Of a stretch of 64,000 bases of DNA, positions 2,984 to 32,460 are shown piece by piece. The stretch lies in NCBI GenBank assembly GCA_032355985.1, contig JAUKVZ010000006.1:205312-269311 (forward strand), written 5' to 3'. The stretch comes from Sarcodiotheca gaudichaudii (lineage: Eukaryota > Rhodophyta > Florideophyceae > Gigartinales > Solieriaceae). Numbering within the stretch: position 1 is the stretch's first letter; each line of letters begins with the position of its first letter. The position numbers and the translations under genes were made by a program. The notes below the pieces were generated by a model. It did no database searches. It was not told the DNA's origin and worked only from the letters and a program-made list of their open reading frames with translations.

Positions 2984-4297
2984 ATGACACCCACGCCCGA
3001 CAAACTCAATGCGCTGCTCATCGGCGGCGGCGGCCGCGAGCACGCGCTCGCCTGGAAGCTCAAGCAGTCGCCCCGTCTGAACACGCTCTACGTCAGCCAT
3101 CCATCTAATCCCGGCCTGGCAGGCCTCGGCGAAGCGATGGATGTGCCCTTCGACCTGCGCGACACCTTTCGCATCAAACGATTCTGCGACAAGAAGGGCA
3201 TCAACCTCATCATCATCGGCCCGGAGGATCCCCTGGCCGCCGGACTGGCCGATGAACTCGCCTCCACCGGCCGCTCGATCGTCGGCCCGTCCAAAGACGG
3301 CGCTCGCCTCGAGGCGGACAAGGCATGGGCCAAGCAGCTCATGCGAGCGGCATCCATCCCGACGGGCGAGGCGCGCATCTTCACCAGCGCCGACGATGCC
3401 GCCGCCTATCTCGAATCGCGCGAAGATGCCCACGTCATCAAGGCCGCGGGTCTGGCCAAGGGCAAGGGCGTGATCGTCCCGTCGTCATTGGAAGAGGGCC
3501 TCGATGCGATCGATCGCATCATGCGCCAGCGCATCTTCAATGAGGCGGGCGACACCGTCATCATCGAAGAGCGCCTCGAAGGCCCCGAAGCATCGGTGCT
3601 GGCCCTCGTCGATGGCCGCACGATCTATGTGCTGGAGTGCTGTCAGGATCACAAGCGCCTGCTCGAAGGAGGCGCCGGCCCCAACACCGGCGGCATGGGC
3701 GCCTTCTGCCCGACGAGCGTCGTCGATGATCCCATGATGGCGCGCATCCAGTCCGACATCCTCGTGCCGACCGTCGATGCCCTTCGCCGCGAAGGCATCG
3801 AGTTCAAGGGCATTCTCTACGCCGGACTGATGCTCACCCACGCCGGACCCAAGGTGCTGGAGTTCAACGTGCGCTTCGGCGACCCTGAGTGCCAGCCGCT
3901 GATGATGCGCATCAAGGGCGATCTGGGCGACATCATGTATCGCACCGGCGCCGGCACACTCGCCGACGCCGAGATCGACTGGGATCCGCGCACCGCCTGC
4001 TGCATCGTCATGGCCAGCCGCGGCTATCCCGAGAAGCCCGAAGTCGGCTTCGAAATCACCGGCGTCGACGAAGCCGAAGCGATGGAGGATGTGCAGGTCT
4101 TCCACGCGGGCACAACCATCGACAAGCAGGGCAAACTGGTCACATCAGGCGGGCGCGTGCTCAGCGTCACAGCTCTCGGCGACACGCTAGAGCAGGCGCG
4201 CGACAAGGCGCTGGCGGCATGCGATGTGATCGAGTTCGAAGGCAAGCACCTTCGCCGCGACATCGGCGCGGGGGCGACGGCGGCGAGCAGCCGCTAG
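2984..4297 (+). CDS. purD: Phosphoribosylamine--glycine ligase
   Basis: 437 residues, the usual length. It catalyses the second step of de novo purine synthesis, joining phosphoribosylamine and glycine with ATP to give GAR, in the cytoplasm. Visible hallmarks are the N-terminal Rossmann start LLIGGGGREHALAWKL, GPEDPLAAGLADEL, the ATP-grasp region with VIKAAGLAKGKGVIV, GAGPNTGGMGAFCPT and the family signature FNVRFGDPECQPL. ATG 2984 gives the normal N-terminus. The gene stands alone between secreted-protein genes; the other purine gene in the window is purB, far away at 39.4 kb. Confidence 0.96.
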   Translation: MTPTPDKLNALLIGGGGREHALAWKLKQSPRLNTLYVSHPSNPGLAGLGEAMDVPFDLRDTFRIKRFCDKKGINLIIIGPEDPLAAGLADELASTGRSIVGPSKDGARLEADKAWAKQLMRAASIPTGEARIFTSADDAAAYLESREDAHVIKAAGLAKGKGVIVPSSLEEGLDAIDRIMRQRIFNEAGDTVIIEERLEGPEASVLALVDGRTIYVLECCQDHKRLLEGGAGPNTGGMGAFCPTSVVDDPMMARIQSDILVPTVDALRREGIEFKGILYAGLMLTHAGPKVLEFNVRFGDPECQPLMMRIKGDLGDIMYRTGAGTLADAEIDWDPRTACCIVMASRGYPEKPEVGFEITGVDEAEAMEDVQVFHAGTTIDKQGKLVTSGGRVLSVTALGDTLEQARDKALAACDVIEFEGKHLRRDIGAGATAASSR

Positions 4298-26481: not shown

Positions 26482-27435
26482 TTACGACTTCTTCCCGAGC
26501 ACGAAGCCGATCAGCGCACAGATGACGGCAAGGCCGCCCAGCGCTCCAATGACGATCATGAACTTATCGCTCAGCAGATGCGTGATCGGATTGTGCCCGA
26601 CATCCATCAGGCCGCCGATCACCGCCACCATGCCCACGCTCAGCGCCACCAACGACGCCAGCGCAAGCCCGCCGACAAGACCGCTGCCCGGTCCGTCATA
26701 AGGCTCGGCGATCATCAAAGCGCCGGCGCCGCCCATCGCTGAGCCCGCAGCCGGTGCGCTGATCTCTTCATCGTCGCCTTCAAACAACCCGCTCGCGCCC
26801 GGCGCGCCGGCAGCGGAATTTGAGGACTCCTCGTCGGCGTACAGATCATCAAGGAACTCGACGGCGCCGAGCGATGTGTCATCACTCTCGCGCGTCAGAT
26901 CAAGCAGACCCGAGCCGGAGCCAACCGATTCCAGCGAAAGCTCGCCGATGCCGTCTTCCGTCACAAGCGTGTCCGCCGAAGCGTCCACCTCGTCAAGATC
27001 CTCTTCGTCGGCGTCAAAGATGCTCACGCCGGTCTTCTGCTTGGGATTGTCTTCTGCAGTCAGCTCGCCCGAATCGCCAAGCGAAATCGCCGCCGCCGAA
27101 CCGCTGCCCATGCCCGGCTCTATGCCGGTGCCCATGCCCGAGCCTTCGCCCGAATCGAGATTCGTCTGCTCAACGCCGATCGAGTCAGCAAGATCAATCG
27201 CATCGCCCGCCAGTGAATCCGCAAGCGGAATCATGCTGCTCATGTCAGCAGGATCAACATCGTGATCTTCGCCTTCATCCGAAGACAACAGATCGATCTG
27301 ATCGACCTTGAACATCAGCTTGTCGCGATCGCGAAACTCCTGGATACGACCGCTCGAGGCCATCTCGCGCACCTCGTCCTCGCTCGTTCCGAGCTTCTCC
27401 GCGGCCTCTTCCAGTGTGTAGAACATCTTGGCCAT
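26482..27435 (-). CDS. Helix-turn-helix protein with acidic linker and two membrane segments
   Basis: 317 residues. The first 50 (FYTLEEAAEKLGTSEDEVREMA, GRIQEFRDRDKLMF) form an excisionase/MerR-like helix-turn-helix that normally binds DNA. Residues about 55-240 are very acidic and rich in Asp, Ser and Gly, with low complexity. Two hydrophobic segments follow at about 255-280 and 292-314, with the tail GKKS in the cytoplasm. The design fits a membrane-tethered DNA-binding protein. It is divergent from a metallophosphoesterase gene and lies 145 bases upstream of the FlgI-domain gene. The target is unknown. Confidence 0.75.
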   Translation of the reverse strand: MAKMFYTLEEAAEKLGTSEDEVREMASSGRIQEFRDRDKLMFKVDQIDLLSSDEGEDHDVDPADMSSMIPLADSLAGDAIDLADSIGVEQTNLDSGEGSGMGTGIEPGMGSGSAAAISLGDSGELTAEDNPKQKTGVSIFDADEEDLDEVDASADTLVTEDGIGELSLESVGSGSGLLDLTRESDDTSLGAVEFLDDLYADEESSNSAAGAPGASGLFEGDDEEISAPAAGSAMGGAGALMIAEPYDGPGSGLVGGLALASLVALSVGMVAVIGGLMDVGHNPITHLLSDKFMIVIGALGGLAVICALIGFVLGKKS

Positions 27436-27539
27436 CGAATTTGGCCTCCGTAGACATGCGGCTGATGGGCGAAAACCCCCGACGGGCCGCTCAGTATCGC
27501 AAGTGGGGCGGATCTTGCAACGCTATCCTCAGGTCACGC

Positions 27540-28349
27540 GTGCCCCAATTCACCCCCGAGACAGCCTTTCGCACGCCGGACCCGTTTCATCGTATCCGGC
27601 TCAGATGCCCGGACCTCCCTGAGGCCCTCGAAGGCTTCACCATCCTCCAGCTCACCGATCCTCACGTTCGCCGCAATCGGCCTCGATTCCAGCGCCTCAG
27701 CAGGGCTCTCGCCCGCATCAGGCCCGATCTGGCCGTCATCACCGGCGACTGGATGAGCTACCCGGGCGATGAACCCATCGCTCGCGCCGTCCTCCGGGAA
27801 GTCGCGGACGCCCTCGTGCCCAAACACGGGATCGTCGGCGTCTTCGGGAATCACGACACCCATCTCTTTCGCACCGAATACGCCCCGGATCCCCGCGTTT
27901 CGTGGCTTCCAGACGGGTTCCACGATGTCTCCGGCCTTCCTCTGCGGCTCCTCGCCCTCAACTGGCCGGAGGACTGGCCCGCCGTCGCCGCACAAAGCGA
28001 GCCCGACCGGGCCGACAATCGCCTCACACTGGGCCTCATTCACCATCCCGGCGCCGCGCCGGGCGTCGTCCGCCTCGGAGCGGACATCGTCCTCGCCGGC
28101 CACACCCATGGCGGCCAGCTCCGCCTCCCATGGCGATGGGCGCCCTACACATCCAGTGAAATGCCCCGCAGGCAGGCCGCAGGCATCTTCCGACTGTCAG
28201 ACGCCCAGCTCTGCATCAGCCGCGGCATGGGCGACGCCGGACTCGATTTCCGCCTCTTCTGCCCGCCGCAGATCCCCCTCTACACGCTCACAAGAGGCCC
28301 CTTACCCGAAGCGCGCGACACCATCACCGGCCTCGTCGAGGCCTGGTGA
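27540..28349 (+). CDS. Calcineurin-like metallophosphoesterase
   Basis: About 269 residues. Motifs of the family are in order: LQLTDPHV (D-x-H), VITGDWM (GD), GVFGNHD (GNHD), LIHHPG and LAGHTHGGQLRL (GHTH), giving a two-metal site. It resembles YkuE/YaeI-type enzymes, but no signal or membrane segment is seen, so the substrate is unknown. The start is uncertain: GTG 27540 begins just before conserved sequence; ATG 27456 adds 28 residues that look non-coding and nearly meet the divergent gene. No strong ribosome site precedes either. Confidence 0.83.
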   Translation: MPQFTPETAFRTPDPFHRIRLRCPDLPEALEGFTILQLTDPHVRRNRPRFQRLSRALARIRPDLAVITGDWMSYPGDEPIARAVLREVADALVPKHGIVGVFGNHDTHLFRTEYAPDPRVSWLPDGFHDVSGLPLRLLALNWPEDWPAVAAQSEPDRADNRLTLGLIHHPGAAPGVVRLGADIVLAGHTHGGQLRLPWRWAPYTSSEMPRRQAAGIFRLSDAQLCISRGMGDAGLDFRLFCPPQIPLYTLTRGPLPEARDTITGLVEAW

Positions 28350-29402
28350 ACCGGTTTCACAGAAGCATGCAATATGCAAATCGACTTCGCCCCACAGGGC
28401 ACTGGATTGGAGTTGGCTGAGTCGTCAAAAATCGTCCCAATCAGGGCAACAACTCAACCATCCTCCGTTGGGGTGCGTTTGTTGCAGCGAATTCAGAACG
28501 CCGCTGATGCCAGTCGCCGTAGAGTTGAATCGCTTTGAAACTGGGCCGGCGCGTTCGGGCTCGTCGCGACGTCGATTCGTGGCAGGAACATGTGGCACAA
28601 CGACATATGCCCGTCTGATTCTTCTGTCCACAATATCTTCGCGGCCTCGCACATCCCTCGCGATCTTGTTACACTCCGCGATTAATGAAAACCGGCCGCG
28701 ACGTTACCAGCGCCGCGGCCGCGATGGACCGTTTGAATCGTTTCAGGTTGAGGTACGGCCCATGAAGGGCAGACAATACCAAATTCTGTTGTCTACGTCA
28801 ACGCGAAACGCCCGTGAACAGCGGGTTTACGCGCGAAACGCCTTTCACTCGGGGGCCTCCGGGATTTGTCCACATCCCTGCTGCCTGCGGTGCTTGGCGC
28901 TGCCGCGCGCGCATAATCAGGTCGGGAGGCAATAGTTGCGCTGACTCGAACTCAATGAATACAAGGCCGCGGCGGCAACCGCGACCCTGTGAAGCAAAAC
29001 CCGGCTTTCCACCTCTCACGGAGAAAAACGATGGGTCTTTACCCTGATTTGTACGCTCGTCCGCCACCGCAGGATTCACCCAAGGTCCCCTTTTGGGACC
29101 GAGATCGGTGTCCCCCGCTCTCCCTTGATCGGAGAGCCTGCGGACGAGAAATCCACAAATCCCATTGGAGATCACGCAATGGTGACCGTGAGGTCATATC
29201 GGCGTCGGCTCCCCAACTCGCCCGCCTGGGCTCCTCGCGTCGTCATCGTGACGGCCCATGTCAGGAGCCTGCCGGGCAGCAAGCGGGATCGGCGGAAACG
29301 TGGCCAAGCCCGGTAGGGCGTGACCACAACGCATTGGATTGGCCCTCTTGGGCCTCAACATCCCTCCACGGTTGCACCCGTGGAGGGACATTCAACAAAG
29401 CA
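28350..29402. other. Gene-poor kilobase with hairpins
   Basis: No frame in this region shows a recognisable domain or a convincing start. Notable structure includes GC-rich inverted repeats near 28692-28724 (GCCGCG / CGCGGC), a repeated GCGAAACGCC at about 28803 and 28834, a hairpin GGTCCC / GGGACC at about 29083-29100, and a 10-bp hairpin at 29361-29388 with stem TCCCTCCACG / CGTGGAGGGA. The last sits 14 bases before the tRNA gene and could be a processing or attenuation structure. A small RNA could be hidden here. There is no match I can make to RNase P, tmRNA or SRP RNA. Confidence 0.3.
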
Positions 29403-29487
29403 GCCCCCGTGGCGGAATTGGAAGACGCGGCCGATTTGCAATCGGTGACTCAGGGTGAGTTTGCGGGTTCGAACCCCGCCGGGGGCA
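29403..29487 (+). tRNA. tRNA with leucine-type body and UGC anticodon
   Basis: 85 bases, CCA not encoded. The acceptor stem GCCCCCG pairs perfectly with CGGGGGC (29480-29486), discriminator A. The D arm (GCG, GAATTGGAAGA, CGC) has the typical tRNA-Leu loop. The anticodon stem GCCGA/TCGGT encloses TTTGCAA, so the anticodon at 29437-29439 is TGC, which reads alanine GCN codons. A long variable arm with stem ACTCA/TGAGT and loop GGG follows, then the T arm GCGGG-TTCGAAC-CCCGC. Long variable arms belong to Leu, Ser and bacterial Tyr tRNAs, and pair 3:70 is C:G, not the G:U that marks alanine. Reading the anticodon as GCA (Cys) would break the stem. Which amino acid it carries cannot be decided from sequence. 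Confidence 0.8.
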
Positions 29488-29584
29488 ATTCCAGCTTCCC
29501 GTCCAGTGGGGGCGGGAGCATAGGTAGTGTTGCCCAATTGGTCAAAAGCGGACCGTGGGCAGTTTGAAAGGAAGCATCGTGAGT

Positions 29585-29896
29585 ATGGAATACTCAATTG
29601 TTCGAAAAGCGATCCTGAACAAGCAGCAGATCGTTGCGACTTACCACCAGCGCGAGCGTTTCTTGTGTCCGCATGTGATCGGAACGAAGAATGGCCGCGA
29701 GCAGGCACTGTTCTACCAGTTTGGGGGCCATAGCAGCAGTGGCATTGACCCCGATGGATCGAGTCGCAACTGGCGATGCATGCGCATCGATGAACTCGAC
29801 GACGTGACCGCGGTCGATGGCGAGTGGCACACGGCCCCGAACCACTCACGCCCTCAGACGTGTGTGGATGTGATTGATGTGGAGGTGTCACGCTAG
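29585..29896 (+). CDS. Small WYL-like protein of unknown function
   Basis: 103 residues from ATG 29585 with AAGGAAG upstream; a GTG at 29579 is also possible. The sequence AILNKQQIVATYHQRERFLCPHVIG, then QALFYQFGG and SRNWRCMRIDEL, has the strand order of a stand-alone WYL-like or Sm-like beta barrel: a basic/tyrosine strand, a PH turn and a terminal helix with DEL. WYL domains bind nucleic acids or ligands in regulators. No helix-turn-helix is attached. It converges on the next small gene. Confidence 0.6.
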   Translation: MEYSIVRKAILNKQQIVATYHQRERFLCPHVIGTKNGREQALFYQFGGHSSSGIDPDGSSRNWRCMRIDELDDVTAVDGEWHTAPNHSRPQTCVDVIDVEVSR

Positions 29897-29899
29897 GAC

Positions 29900-30094
29900 T
29901 CAGGCGGCGCGGCCATTCATCCAGTGGGCGTACTCAAGCGCCCGGGACTCGGCCTCTGGACCGGTGAAGCGAGCCATGTAGACCTCGCCATCATTGTCAT
30001 GCGCGATCGCCTCGACGATCCAGTTGTCGCTCGACACAGAATCTTGGGCCTCTTTGACCTCATATTTCAGGGCCACTTGCTGAACGGTGGACAT
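29900..30094 (-). CDS. Small conserved-looking protein of unknown function
   Basis: 64 residues preceded by a good ribosome site (AAGGAG, 7 bases before ATG 30094). The sequence (VALKYEVKEAQ, NWIVEAIAHDNDGEVYMARFTGPEAESRALEYAHWMNG) suggests a small alpha/beta protein ending in an amphipathic helix. There is no signal or membrane segment. It ends 4 bases from the convergent WYL-like gene. Function unknown. Confidence 0.6.
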   Translation of the reverse strand: MSTVQQVALKYEVKEAQDSVSSDNWIVEAIAHDNDGEVYMARFTGPEAESRALEYAHWMNGRAA

Positions 30095-30291
30095 GGGTGT
30101 CTCCTTTTCACGCCCCTAGATCATGGCATACGTTCGGTCGCACTTCAATCGCGGCGTCAATTTCTAGCAGACGAAATCGGCCTTTCCAAGTTGATACGCC
30201 GGTTTTTGGCGTCTCGACAGCAATCCGATTTTCCTGAAAGCACCTGTCGTCAGGGCGCTCATGTGTTCGGTTTCGACGATGAATGGCGTTT

Positions 30292-31131
30292 TCAGCGCTG
30301 GCGAGGGGCGTCGGCGCTGCGAATCGCTTCCCGCCCGCGGCCATGGACGCCCAGATGAATCCGCTCCAGCGAATCGCACAGCTTCAGCACAGCCCGGCTC
30401 TGGCCCGGAATTGACCGAAGTTTCTCGACACCCATCTGCATTGGTTCATCCGGATTGCGGAAGAGCTGCTTGAAGGCGATGCGAAGCGCCTCGATCTCGC
30501 CCACCGACCAGCCGCGCCGAACCAGCGCCGTCGTGTTGACCTTGCGAGGCTCCGCCGGCGATCCCTCGACGACGAGGAAGGGGGCCACATCCTTCGTGAT
30601 GCGCGCCATGCCGCCGACGAATGAAAGCTGCCCGACCGTCGCGAAGTGATGCACACCCGCGCCGCCGGCGATCGTCGCGCCGTATTCGACAAGACAATGC
30701 CCGCCGAGCATCGCGCCGTTGGCGATCACGACTTCATCTTCAATCACGCAGTCATGCGCAATGTGAATGCCGACCATCAACAGACAGTCGCTGCCGATCA
30801 CCGTGCGTCCACCGCCAAGTTCGGTGCCGCGATGAATCGTCGCGTGCTCGCGAATGCGATTGCGATCGCCGATGACGAGCTCGGTGTGCCCGCCCTTGTA
30901 TTTCAGATCCTGCGGCTCAGCGCCGATCACCGCGAATGGATAGAGAACATTGTCCTCACCCATGCGCGTCGGGCCGTGCACAGTCACATGATTGTGAATC
31001 ACGGTGCGAGCGCCGATGGTGACATCCGCTCCGACAACCGCATACGGTCCGATCTTCACTCCCTCGCCGACAGTGGCGCGCGGGTCGACGATTGCCGTCG
31101 GGTGAATCTCGGCGTGTGTGGAGATGCTCAT
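30292..31131 (-). CDS. lpxA: Acyl-ACP--UDP-N-acetylglucosamine O-acyltransferase
   Basis: 279 residues. It performs the first step of lipid A synthesis, moving a 3-hydroxyacyl chain from ACP to UDP-GlcNAc. The N-terminal two-thirds is the left-handed hexapeptide-repeat helix (IHPTAIVDPRATVGEGVKIG). The catalytic His lies in GIHIAHDCVIED (His126, equivalent to His125 of the E. coli enzyme). The C-terminus is the helical domain (VRRGWSVGEIEALRIAFKQLF). ATG 31131 directly follows the stop of lpxC-fabZ, which indicates coupled translation. Confidence 0.95.
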   Translation of the reverse strand: MSISTHAEIHPTAIVDPRATVGEGVKIGPYAVVGADVTIGARTVIHNHVTVHGPTRMGEDNVLYPFAVIGAEPQDLKYKGGHTELVIGDRNRIREHATIHRGTELGGGRTVIGSDCLLMVGIHIAHDCVIEDEVVIANGAMLGGHCLVEYGATIAGGAGVHHFATVGQLSFVGGMARITKDVAPFLVVEGSPAEPRKVNTTALVRRGWSVGEIEALRIAFKQLFRNPDEPMQMGVEKLRSIPGQSRAVLKLCDSLERIHLGVHGRGREAIRSADAPRQR

Positions 31132-32460
31132 TCAGTCCTGCTCCGCGTCGACCATCATGAACTTCACCTGCGCCTCGGCGACGAGCTTCCCGCCGACGAA
31201 CGCCCTGCAATCAACCTCGCCGAAGCGATTGGTCGCGCGAATGGCCTGCGTCTCCATCACGAGTTGATCTCCGGGCGTCACGGGCTTGCGAAGTTTCACG
31301 TTCTCGAGTCCGAGCAGCACCGCAATCCTGCCGGTGCGCTCCAGCTTCTGGCTCAGCATCAGTCCTGCGAGTTGCGACATCGCCTCGACGATGAGCACTC
31401 CAGGCATGATCGGCGATTCGGGATAGTGCCCCTGGAAAAACGGTTCGTTCATCGTAACGTTCTTGATGCCGATCGCCTTAAGATCGCCTTCAAGACGCAC
31501 AACGCGGTCTACAAGCACCATCGGGTACCGATGGGGGAGCAGGCGCAAAATCCGCCGGATGTCCATCGCCGGCGCCAGAGCCCCGCCTTCAGGCGAGTCC
31601 TGCGCGTTTCCCAGCTTCACAAGCTCGCGCGCCATCCGATGATTCAGGCTGTGCCCCGAACGCGTCGCCACCACGCGCCCGCGCAGCGGACGACCCGCAA
31701 GCGCGATGTCGCCCACAAGATCAAGCAGCTTGTGACGCGCCGGCTCATCCGCAAAACGAAAACTGTTGTCAATCGGCCCATCCTGACCGATCACCAGGAT
31801 GTCCTTCGGCGTCAGGTGGCGGCACATCCCGCGATCCTGCAGCGCCTGCGCTTCTTCAGCCGTCGCGTACGTGCGCGCCGAGGCGATCCGATCTCGATAC
31901 GCCGATGCCTCCAGCGTAAACGCGCACGCCTGACGCGCAAGCGCCGATGACTTGCCGTAGTCAAGGTCGTAGACGTAATCAGTCGCCGGCGCATCATTGG
32001 GCAGCACCGAGACAGTCGCGCCCTCATCGCCCACTGTGATCGGCTCCGTCACAACGATCGGCCGACGAAACGCCTCCTGCTCGACGACGCCGACGGATTC
32101 AATCGCATCAACGAACAATCGCGCCGAGCCATCGCCGCCCGGAAGCTCCTCTGCATCCAGATCGATCACCGCATTGTCGATGCCCAGCCCGGCAAGCGCT
32201 GACATGCAGTGCTCCACCGTCTCAACGATGGCGTCGCCCGCCTGCAGCGCCGTGCGCCGAGGACGATCAACAACATGATCGACATGCGCCCGAATCTCCG
32301 GCGCGCCATCCATATCAACACGACGAAAGCGAATGCCCTCGTTGTCATCGGCAGGCTTGATCGTCGCCGTCACAGGCGCACTGCTGAACAGGCCGGCGCC
32401 GCTGATCGACGCCTCGCCCGCAACCGTCCGCTGATGTTGTCTGTCGTTGTCTGCGCTCAT
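31132..32460 (-). CDS. lpxC-fabZ: Fused LpxC deacetylase / FabZ 3-hydroxyacyl-ACP dehydratase
   Basis: 442 residues carrying two enzymes. Residues about 1-285 are LpxC, which deacetylates UDP-3-O-acyl-GlcNAc in the committed step of lipid A synthesis; zinc ligands fit His84 (EHCMSAL), His243 and Asp247 (RHKLLD), with general acid His270 (SGHSLNH). Residues about 300-442 are FabZ, which dehydrates 3-hydroxyacyl-ACP: [13 protein letters not shown] and the catalytic [14 protein letters not shown] with His345 and Glu359. The fusion puts enzymes that compete for the 3-hydroxyacyl-ACP pool on one chain; similar fusions are known in Bacteroidetes and others. It overlaps lpxD by 4 bases and abuts lpxA. 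Confidence 0.95.

Follow-up and report, generated by a model that had tools for sequence, protein, structure and literature searches.

A class II tRNA gene with the anticodon UGC

The window (the whole 64,000-nucleotide stretch of DNA that we analyzed) includes a class II tRNA gene with a leucine-type body and the anticodon UGC (29,403–29,487, + strand; ARAGORN, Rfam, pairing, and isotype models). ARAGORN calls it "tRNA-Ala (tgc)", and its score against Rfam model RF00005 is 53.8 bits (gathering threshold of 29). The anticodon (TGC, tRNA positions 34–36) is at 29,437–29,439 (+ strand; ARAGORN and position-wise pairing) and sits in the loop UUUGCAA. By position-wise pairing, the acceptor stem has Watson-Crick pairs at 7/7 positions in a 7/5 acceptor-T form, and the long variable region (29,447–29,462, + strand) has a 5-bp stem, ACUCA/UGAGU. 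The D stem (3/3), the variable arm (5/5), and the T stem (5/5) are fully paired, and the anticodon stem has four standard pairs out of five and one G27-U43 pair. Pair 3:70 is C:G, N73 is A, and CCA is absent from the DNA after A73. So the intact class II fold with a UGC anticodon that the first-pass annotation described is confirmed by ARAGORN, by Rfam, and by the pairing of all stems. Its statement that long variable arms are confined to tRNAs for Leu, Ser, and Tyr was too narrow, as tRNA-Sec is described with one as well (PMC7609411). The single-strand fold has a free energy of −44.5 kcal/mol (z = −3.25), and the structure of lowest energy is a long rod instead of a cloverleaf. When we searched the assembly with the DNA of the tRNA, the sole match was the gene itself, and the translated tRNA stretch gave no candidate as a protein-database probe.

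The surrounding segment

The tRNA gene lies in the middle, away from the edges, of a segment (28,350–30,291; blastn, junction, and composition) that is absent from the nearest named relative that we found, Phycisphaerales bacterium IP29b_bin.111, whose counterpart of the protein encoded at 31,135–32,460 is 90% identical. The left flank is a calcineurin-like phosphoesterase gene (27,414–28,349, + strand; Pfam PF00149) that is syntenic in the relative, and the right flank is a putative LpxA-like acyltransferase gene (30,292–31,131, − strand; named by reading) that is 93% identical there. In the relative these two genes abut, about 20 bases apart; here, 1,942 bases lie between them (blastn). The segment's GC content is 57.9%, as compared to 62.6 ± 1.8% for windows of the same size, and by tetranucleotide usage 3.2% of windows are as odd, including those that overlap the segment. 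These features suggest that the 1.9-kb segment, with its tRNA, was gained horizontally. Alternatively, it may have been lost in the relative.

Among five ORFs of the segment that we scanned, none contains a Pfam domain. One of 113 amino acids (29,555–29,896, + strand; homology and plasmid searches) has 551 scattered homologs, including a few from Shewanella, Providencia, and Desulfuromonas, and is found on seven plasmid records of Escherichia and Shigella (small plasmids). It is probably a widely mobile gene that has reached distant bacteria. The search found no phage or viral home for it, and it was not found in 61 genomes of the class, a set that has no positive control. Another ORF, of 64 amino acids, is at 29,900–30,094 (− strand; ORF list and Pfam scan). 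A search of the assembly at E ≤ 0.01 found neither the segment nor the tRNA a second time, although very short repeats may escape this cutoff.

Directly upstream of the tRNA is a strong hairpin (29,361–29,388, + strand; repeat search and fold) with 14-nt arms that are 93% complementary, and directly downstream is a short hairpin-forming stretch (29,494–29,519, + strand; by eye) with no T run behind it. A scan of 29,150–29,650 for sigma-70-like promoters and T-run terminators found sites on the − strand only.

tRNAs and leucyl-tRNA synthetase of the genome

The assembly comprises 4.54 Mb in 61 contigs, of which we took C1–C9, C11, and C12 as the main contigs. We assembled the tRNA inventory from the best Rfam matches (scoring covered the best 63 of 245 candidates), a T-loop pattern (those sites among the matches listed), and a leucine pattern; the inventory omits two T-loop sites of that list, on C11 and C12. 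The main contigs carry at least 45 distinct tRNAs, including the window's; tRNA-Trp is not among them. Ordinary tRNAs include at least five for leucine (GAG, CAA, CAG, UAA, and UAG) and at least three for alanine (GGC, CGC, and UGC), so the window tRNA is an addition and not a replacement. This is the comparison that the first-pass annotation had suggested. Among the tRNA-Leu genes found, the nearest is 72% identical to the window tRNA. One LeuRS lies above the cutoff, on contig C3, with weaker matches below it; the window is on C6.

Several other contigs (C10, C13, C14, C16, C17, C18, C20, C21, and C43) have dense arrays of tRNAs, unlike the main contigs. Ile(gat) and Ala(tgc) occur as a pair in the arrays, which also contain class I tRNAs called as "tRNA-SeC (tca)", and these contigs look like organelle or otherwise foreign DNA in the bin.

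Amino-acid identity

We built covariance models for Leu, Ala, and Ser, each from 29 tRNAs and none including the window tRNA. The Leu pool was 40 tRNAs (the five own ones plus 35 chosen at random from 251 distinct), from which 11 of 79 nt or less were dropped; the Ser pool (40 at random from 136) and the Ala pool (66 shorter than 79 nt) were each reduced to 29 without a fixed rule. With these models, the window tRNA scores 75.7 bits for Leu, 36.0 for Ser, and 30.0 for Ala. The genome's five own tRNA-Leu score 85.6–95.0 bits on the Leu model and its three own tRNA-Ala score 75.2–76.7 bits on the Ala model, all of these being in the training sets. Thus the best isotype is not alanine; a best score for alanine would have told against the first-pass reading.

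The individual determinants agree. For E. coli, PMC9976931 gives the leucine determinants as A73, A15-U48, G18G19, A20a, and contacts between the D and T loops, and C2-G71 as an element that acts against SerRS. The window tRNA has A73, A15-U48, G18G19, and A20a, has U54, U55, C56, and A58 in the T loop, and has C2-G71. The alanine determinants listed in the same source are G2-C71, G3:U70, G4-C69, and G20, with A73 common to Ala and Leu; the window tRNA instead has C2-G71, C3:G70, C4-G69, and A20, and only A73 fits. The absence of G3:U70 had been pointed out in the first-pass annotation, as had the indifference of LeuRS to the anticodon, which holds for E. coli, where this source describes the anticodon as no leucine determinant. 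Overall, the class II fold, the determinants, and the best isotype score are those of a tRNA-Leu, but the anticodon is not NAG, CAA, or UAA, and because it is UGC we keep this tRNA apart from ordinary tRNA-Leu. As a tRNA-Ala it has the anticodon but lacks G3:U70.

Related bacterial genomes

We found 0 sites that combine a leucine D arm and an NNC anticodon in 301 genomes of the order. As a control, the leucine D arm with A at position 35, the base that leucine anticodons have there, matched 3–5 times per genome in all 14 genomes tested, which shows that the D-arm pattern is effective. Across 397 genomes of the class there were seven pattern sites, none of them a tRNA (0/7), and 20 genomes reached through loci gave 16 loose-pattern sites in nine genomes, again none a tRNA. 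(The samples for order, class, and phylum overlap, and exact patterns would overlook divergent D arms.) So the absence from relatives that the first-pass annotation named as counting against its proposal is what we see within the order and the class, and the lack of any such tRNA in the order argues against a long-conserved function.

In the phylum (392 genomes) there were three sites, of which two (L673 and L674) are class II tRNAs and one (L675) is not a tRNA. L673 (contig C30 of genome G627) is of the leucine type with anticodon UGC; it falls below the Rfam threshold and has, by eye, a C-A mismatch at 31:39. A strong hairpin lies directly upstream of it, and a putative transposase-like gene lies about 1 kb away (ORFs read by eye). 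L674 (1494–1581) has the anticodon CUC, and one pair of its anticodon stem is non-standard. The reverse complement of its anticodon loop, CTTCTCAAG, occurs twice just downstream (a 9-nt match; 0/200 shuffles).

These two loci gave rise to the idea that the anticodon loop serves as a guide or forms a kissing interaction with a nearby hairpin, which we rejected. For the window tRNA, 0.64 and 0.69 of shuffles were equally good, and non-Leu loops were echoed nearby at P ≤ 0.05 in 1/20 cases per sense, as compared to 2.8% and 3.7% of 107 Leu controls.

Counterparts in viral contigs

In viral contigs, the combination of leucine D arm and NNC anticodon occurs in 60 stretches, which include 12 ARAGORN tRNAs that carry the pattern. 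The 11 distinct ones have anticodons for Ala (3), Gly (7), and Asp (1). Another viral UGC case (L240) has a shortened T arm and was missed by ARAGORN. Two more viral scans, of 120 loci each, gave at least 25 and at least 35 pattern-bearing tRNAs, two of them Leu.

The viral tRNAs form two groups. In the first, among the matches listed, the Asn tRNAs (at least 20 distinct) have G73 in 19/20; the His tRNAs (at least 12 distinct) have C73 in 12/12 and G-1 in 10; and the Gln tRNAs (at least 18 distinct) have U1-A72 in 17/18 and G73 in 14/18. As these ends mostly fit the anticodon, the members of this group resemble genuine tRNAs for Asn, His, and Gln that have a leucine-like body. (These tRNAs, in L441–L546 and L558–L669, seem to represent a natural change of identity.) A leucine-like D arm, and hence the body alone, is therefore no proof of leucine identity; for the window tRNA, the leucine-type body reported by the first-pass annotation gains support from the isotype score and the determinants. 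The second group (at least 16 distinct) has anticodons for Ala (3), Gly (7), Pro (3), Asp (1), Arg (1), and Thr (1). A73 is kept in 15/16 of these, among the matches listed, and G3:U70 is found in 0/3 of the viral Ala cases. (A73 is uninformative for the three Pro cases because bacterial tRNA-Pro has A73 too, according to PMC9976931.) The window tRNA, with A73 and a non-Leu anticodon, belongs with the second group.

The viral tRNA with the highest overall identity to the window tRNA (78%), in contig L214, is also class II and has the same UGC anticodon. Its contig is a putative Mu-like phage (ORFs read by eye), and the gene ends in CCA, with a TATACT box before it and, after it, a hairpin and T run that resemble a terminator (by eye). 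We rejected kinship between the two: with the anticodon masked, L214 ranks third of 258, level with ordinary tRNA-Leu, so common descent is unsupported. The acceptor GCCCCNG was likewise dropped as a special feature, since the anticodon is a normal Leu anticodon in 112/112 ARAGORN tRNAs with this pattern (119 loci, among the matches listed).

Some other viral loci merit description. In L381 (2939–3027), a class II tRNA whose anticodon (GCC) is for glycine and whose N73 is A has the alanine pair G3:U70, so it may take alanine, and it would then possibly put alanine at glycine codons. In L371, L372, L376, L378, L383, L388, L399, L419, and others, a leucine-like D arm is followed by a long non-tRNA middle; many of these loci end in a T-arm-like sequence such as GGTGCAAATCC, and ARAGORN calls none of them. 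Rfam identified two of ten (L391 and L427) as tRNAs with large inserts. These loci are possibly mimics of tRNA-Leu or tRNAs with very long inserts. Also, L419 contains a ROOL RNA (3251–3863; RF03087, 232 bits) on a tRNA-rich viral contig.

Possible roles of the tRNA

The first-pass interpretation thus holds in part: the gene has a leucine body and an alanine anticodon, and it is additional. Judging from sequence features, the window tRNA most likely can be leucylated and would read GCA as leucine. We tentatively propose that it is an extra tRNA of leucine identity that arrived on a foreign segment of about 1.9 kb and is mischarged. Its transcript, perhaps made at a low level or only under some conditions, would be given CCA and then charged with leucine by the host's LeuRS, which by analogy with E. 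coli is expected to ignore the anticodon. Leu-tRNA(UGC) would be carried by EF-Tu and would compete for GCA with the ordinary tRNA-Ala(UGC) and, via wobble at U34, partly for GCG and GCU. The outcome would be some leucine where alanine is encoded. Of 514 alanine codons in nine genes of the window, 22 are GCA, and a U34 that reads mainly this rare codon would carry a limited cost; but GCG is the commonest (302/514), so misreading could be costly, depending on how well U34 reads G.

Mischarging would account for the intact stems in a tRNA so distant from the nearest tRNA-Leu found in its own genome, and it fits the recurrence of class II tRNAs with wrong anticodons in viral contigs. On the other hand, the + strand at 29,150–29,650 lacks a match to a sigma-70-like promoter or a T-run terminator, none of the 301 genomes of the order has such a tRNA, there is no second LeuRS above the cutoff (unlike tRNA-ProA with its ProRSx), and the indifference of LeuRS to the anticodon is knowledge from E. 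coli (PMC9976931). Several of these observations would also be expected if the gene is a silent or near-silent passenger on foreign DNA that is bound to decay, even if it could still be leucylated in vitro. That is a serious competitor, and we place an expressible, mischarging tRNA slightly ahead of it. The compositional oddity of the segment and its absence from the nearest relative favor a passenger, as does the worn appearance of L673 and L674. However, the window tRNA has no broken pair, which is unexpected after a long silence, although a recent arrival would explain it. Less probably, the tRNA has a role other than decoding, as a leucyl donor, a synthetase decoy, bait for an anticodon nuclease, or an integration target. 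The viral recurrence is compatible with this as well, and phage tRNAs have been proposed as an answer to host anticodon nucleases (PMC10264068). But the tRNA's position in mid-segment, the lack of a second copy of segment or tRNA, the lack of Pfam domains in the neighboring ORFs, and the lack of a nearby echo of the anticodon loop all speak against it.

That the gene is a true tRNA-Ala on an unusual body, charged by AlaRS, is very improbable: the UGC anticodon and the shared A73 would suit it, but pairs 2-71, 3:70, and 4-69 and position 20 all differ from the alanine list, the Ala model score is far below those of the own tRNA-Ala, and the genome already has an ordinary tRNA-Ala(UGC). An error of assembly or sequencing in this metagenome-assembled genome is more improbable still. 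Contigs of foreign look do occur in the assembly, but the window tRNA is at most 72% identical to any own tRNA-Leu found, one base change cannot give any of the five own Leu loops, and synteny with the relative extends over both flanks. Finally, to extend our preferred proposal of mischarging, there could be a mobile pool of "tRNA-LeuX" (with anticodons for Ala, Gly, Pro, Asp, Thr, Arg, and Glu) in phages and chromosomal islands that deliberately misreads codons as leucine, with the window gene as a chromosomal member. We consider this doubtful.

Comparison with known systems

Among the best-ranked open-license PMC matches, we found no report of a bacterial leucine-type tRNA with an alanine anticodon. 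The tRNAscan-SE 2.0 paper discusses isotype conflicts, with a human example (PMC8450103). As ARAGORN named the window gene tRNA-Ala by its anticodon, similar genes can hide as ordinary tRNAs.

Two known groups of class II tRNAs share features with the window tRNA. The allo-tRNAs (Mukai 2017) are also bacterial and have anticodons unrelated to their amino acid, and some are linked to mobile elements (PMC7609411). However, that source describes them as having serine identity and a 12-bp acceptor-T domain in the 8/4 or 9/3 form, while the window tRNA has the 7/5 form and, by A73, C2-G71, and its low Ser score, leucine and not serine identity. The nev-tRNAs of nematodes are leucylated in vitro despite anticodons for Gly (CCC) or Ile (UAU) (PMC4300185), and the effect to be expected from them is the same as for the window tRNA. 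They are nuclear genes and highly conserved, whereas the window tRNA is bacterial and no relatives of it were found in the order. They also offer a caution: despite leucylation in vitro and conservation, mistranslation in vivo was not detected, according to this source.

In principle, the closest parallel is tRNA-ProA of Streptomyces, a tRNA for proline whose anticodon is that for alanine (PMC10365949). It is one of the tRNA-ProX (tRNA-ProA/N/T) of Streptomyces and Kitasatospora (Vargas-Rodriguez 2021; Schuntermann 2023, as cited there). In both cases the body and the anticodon belong to different amino acids, the synthetase tolerates or is expected to tolerate the anticodon, and substitution at alanine codons is shown or predicted. 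As described in PMC10365949, tRNA-ProX has a proline body, often has ProRSx adjacent, and causes misincorporation in E. coli. The window tRNA, which we know from its sequence, has a leucine body, and the search for LeuRS found no extra one above the cutoff, nearby or elsewhere. If it is charged with leucine and used, then genetically encoded mistranslation in bacteria would include leucine bodies in addition to those for proline and serine, and would reach outside Streptomyces, possibly via mobile DNA.
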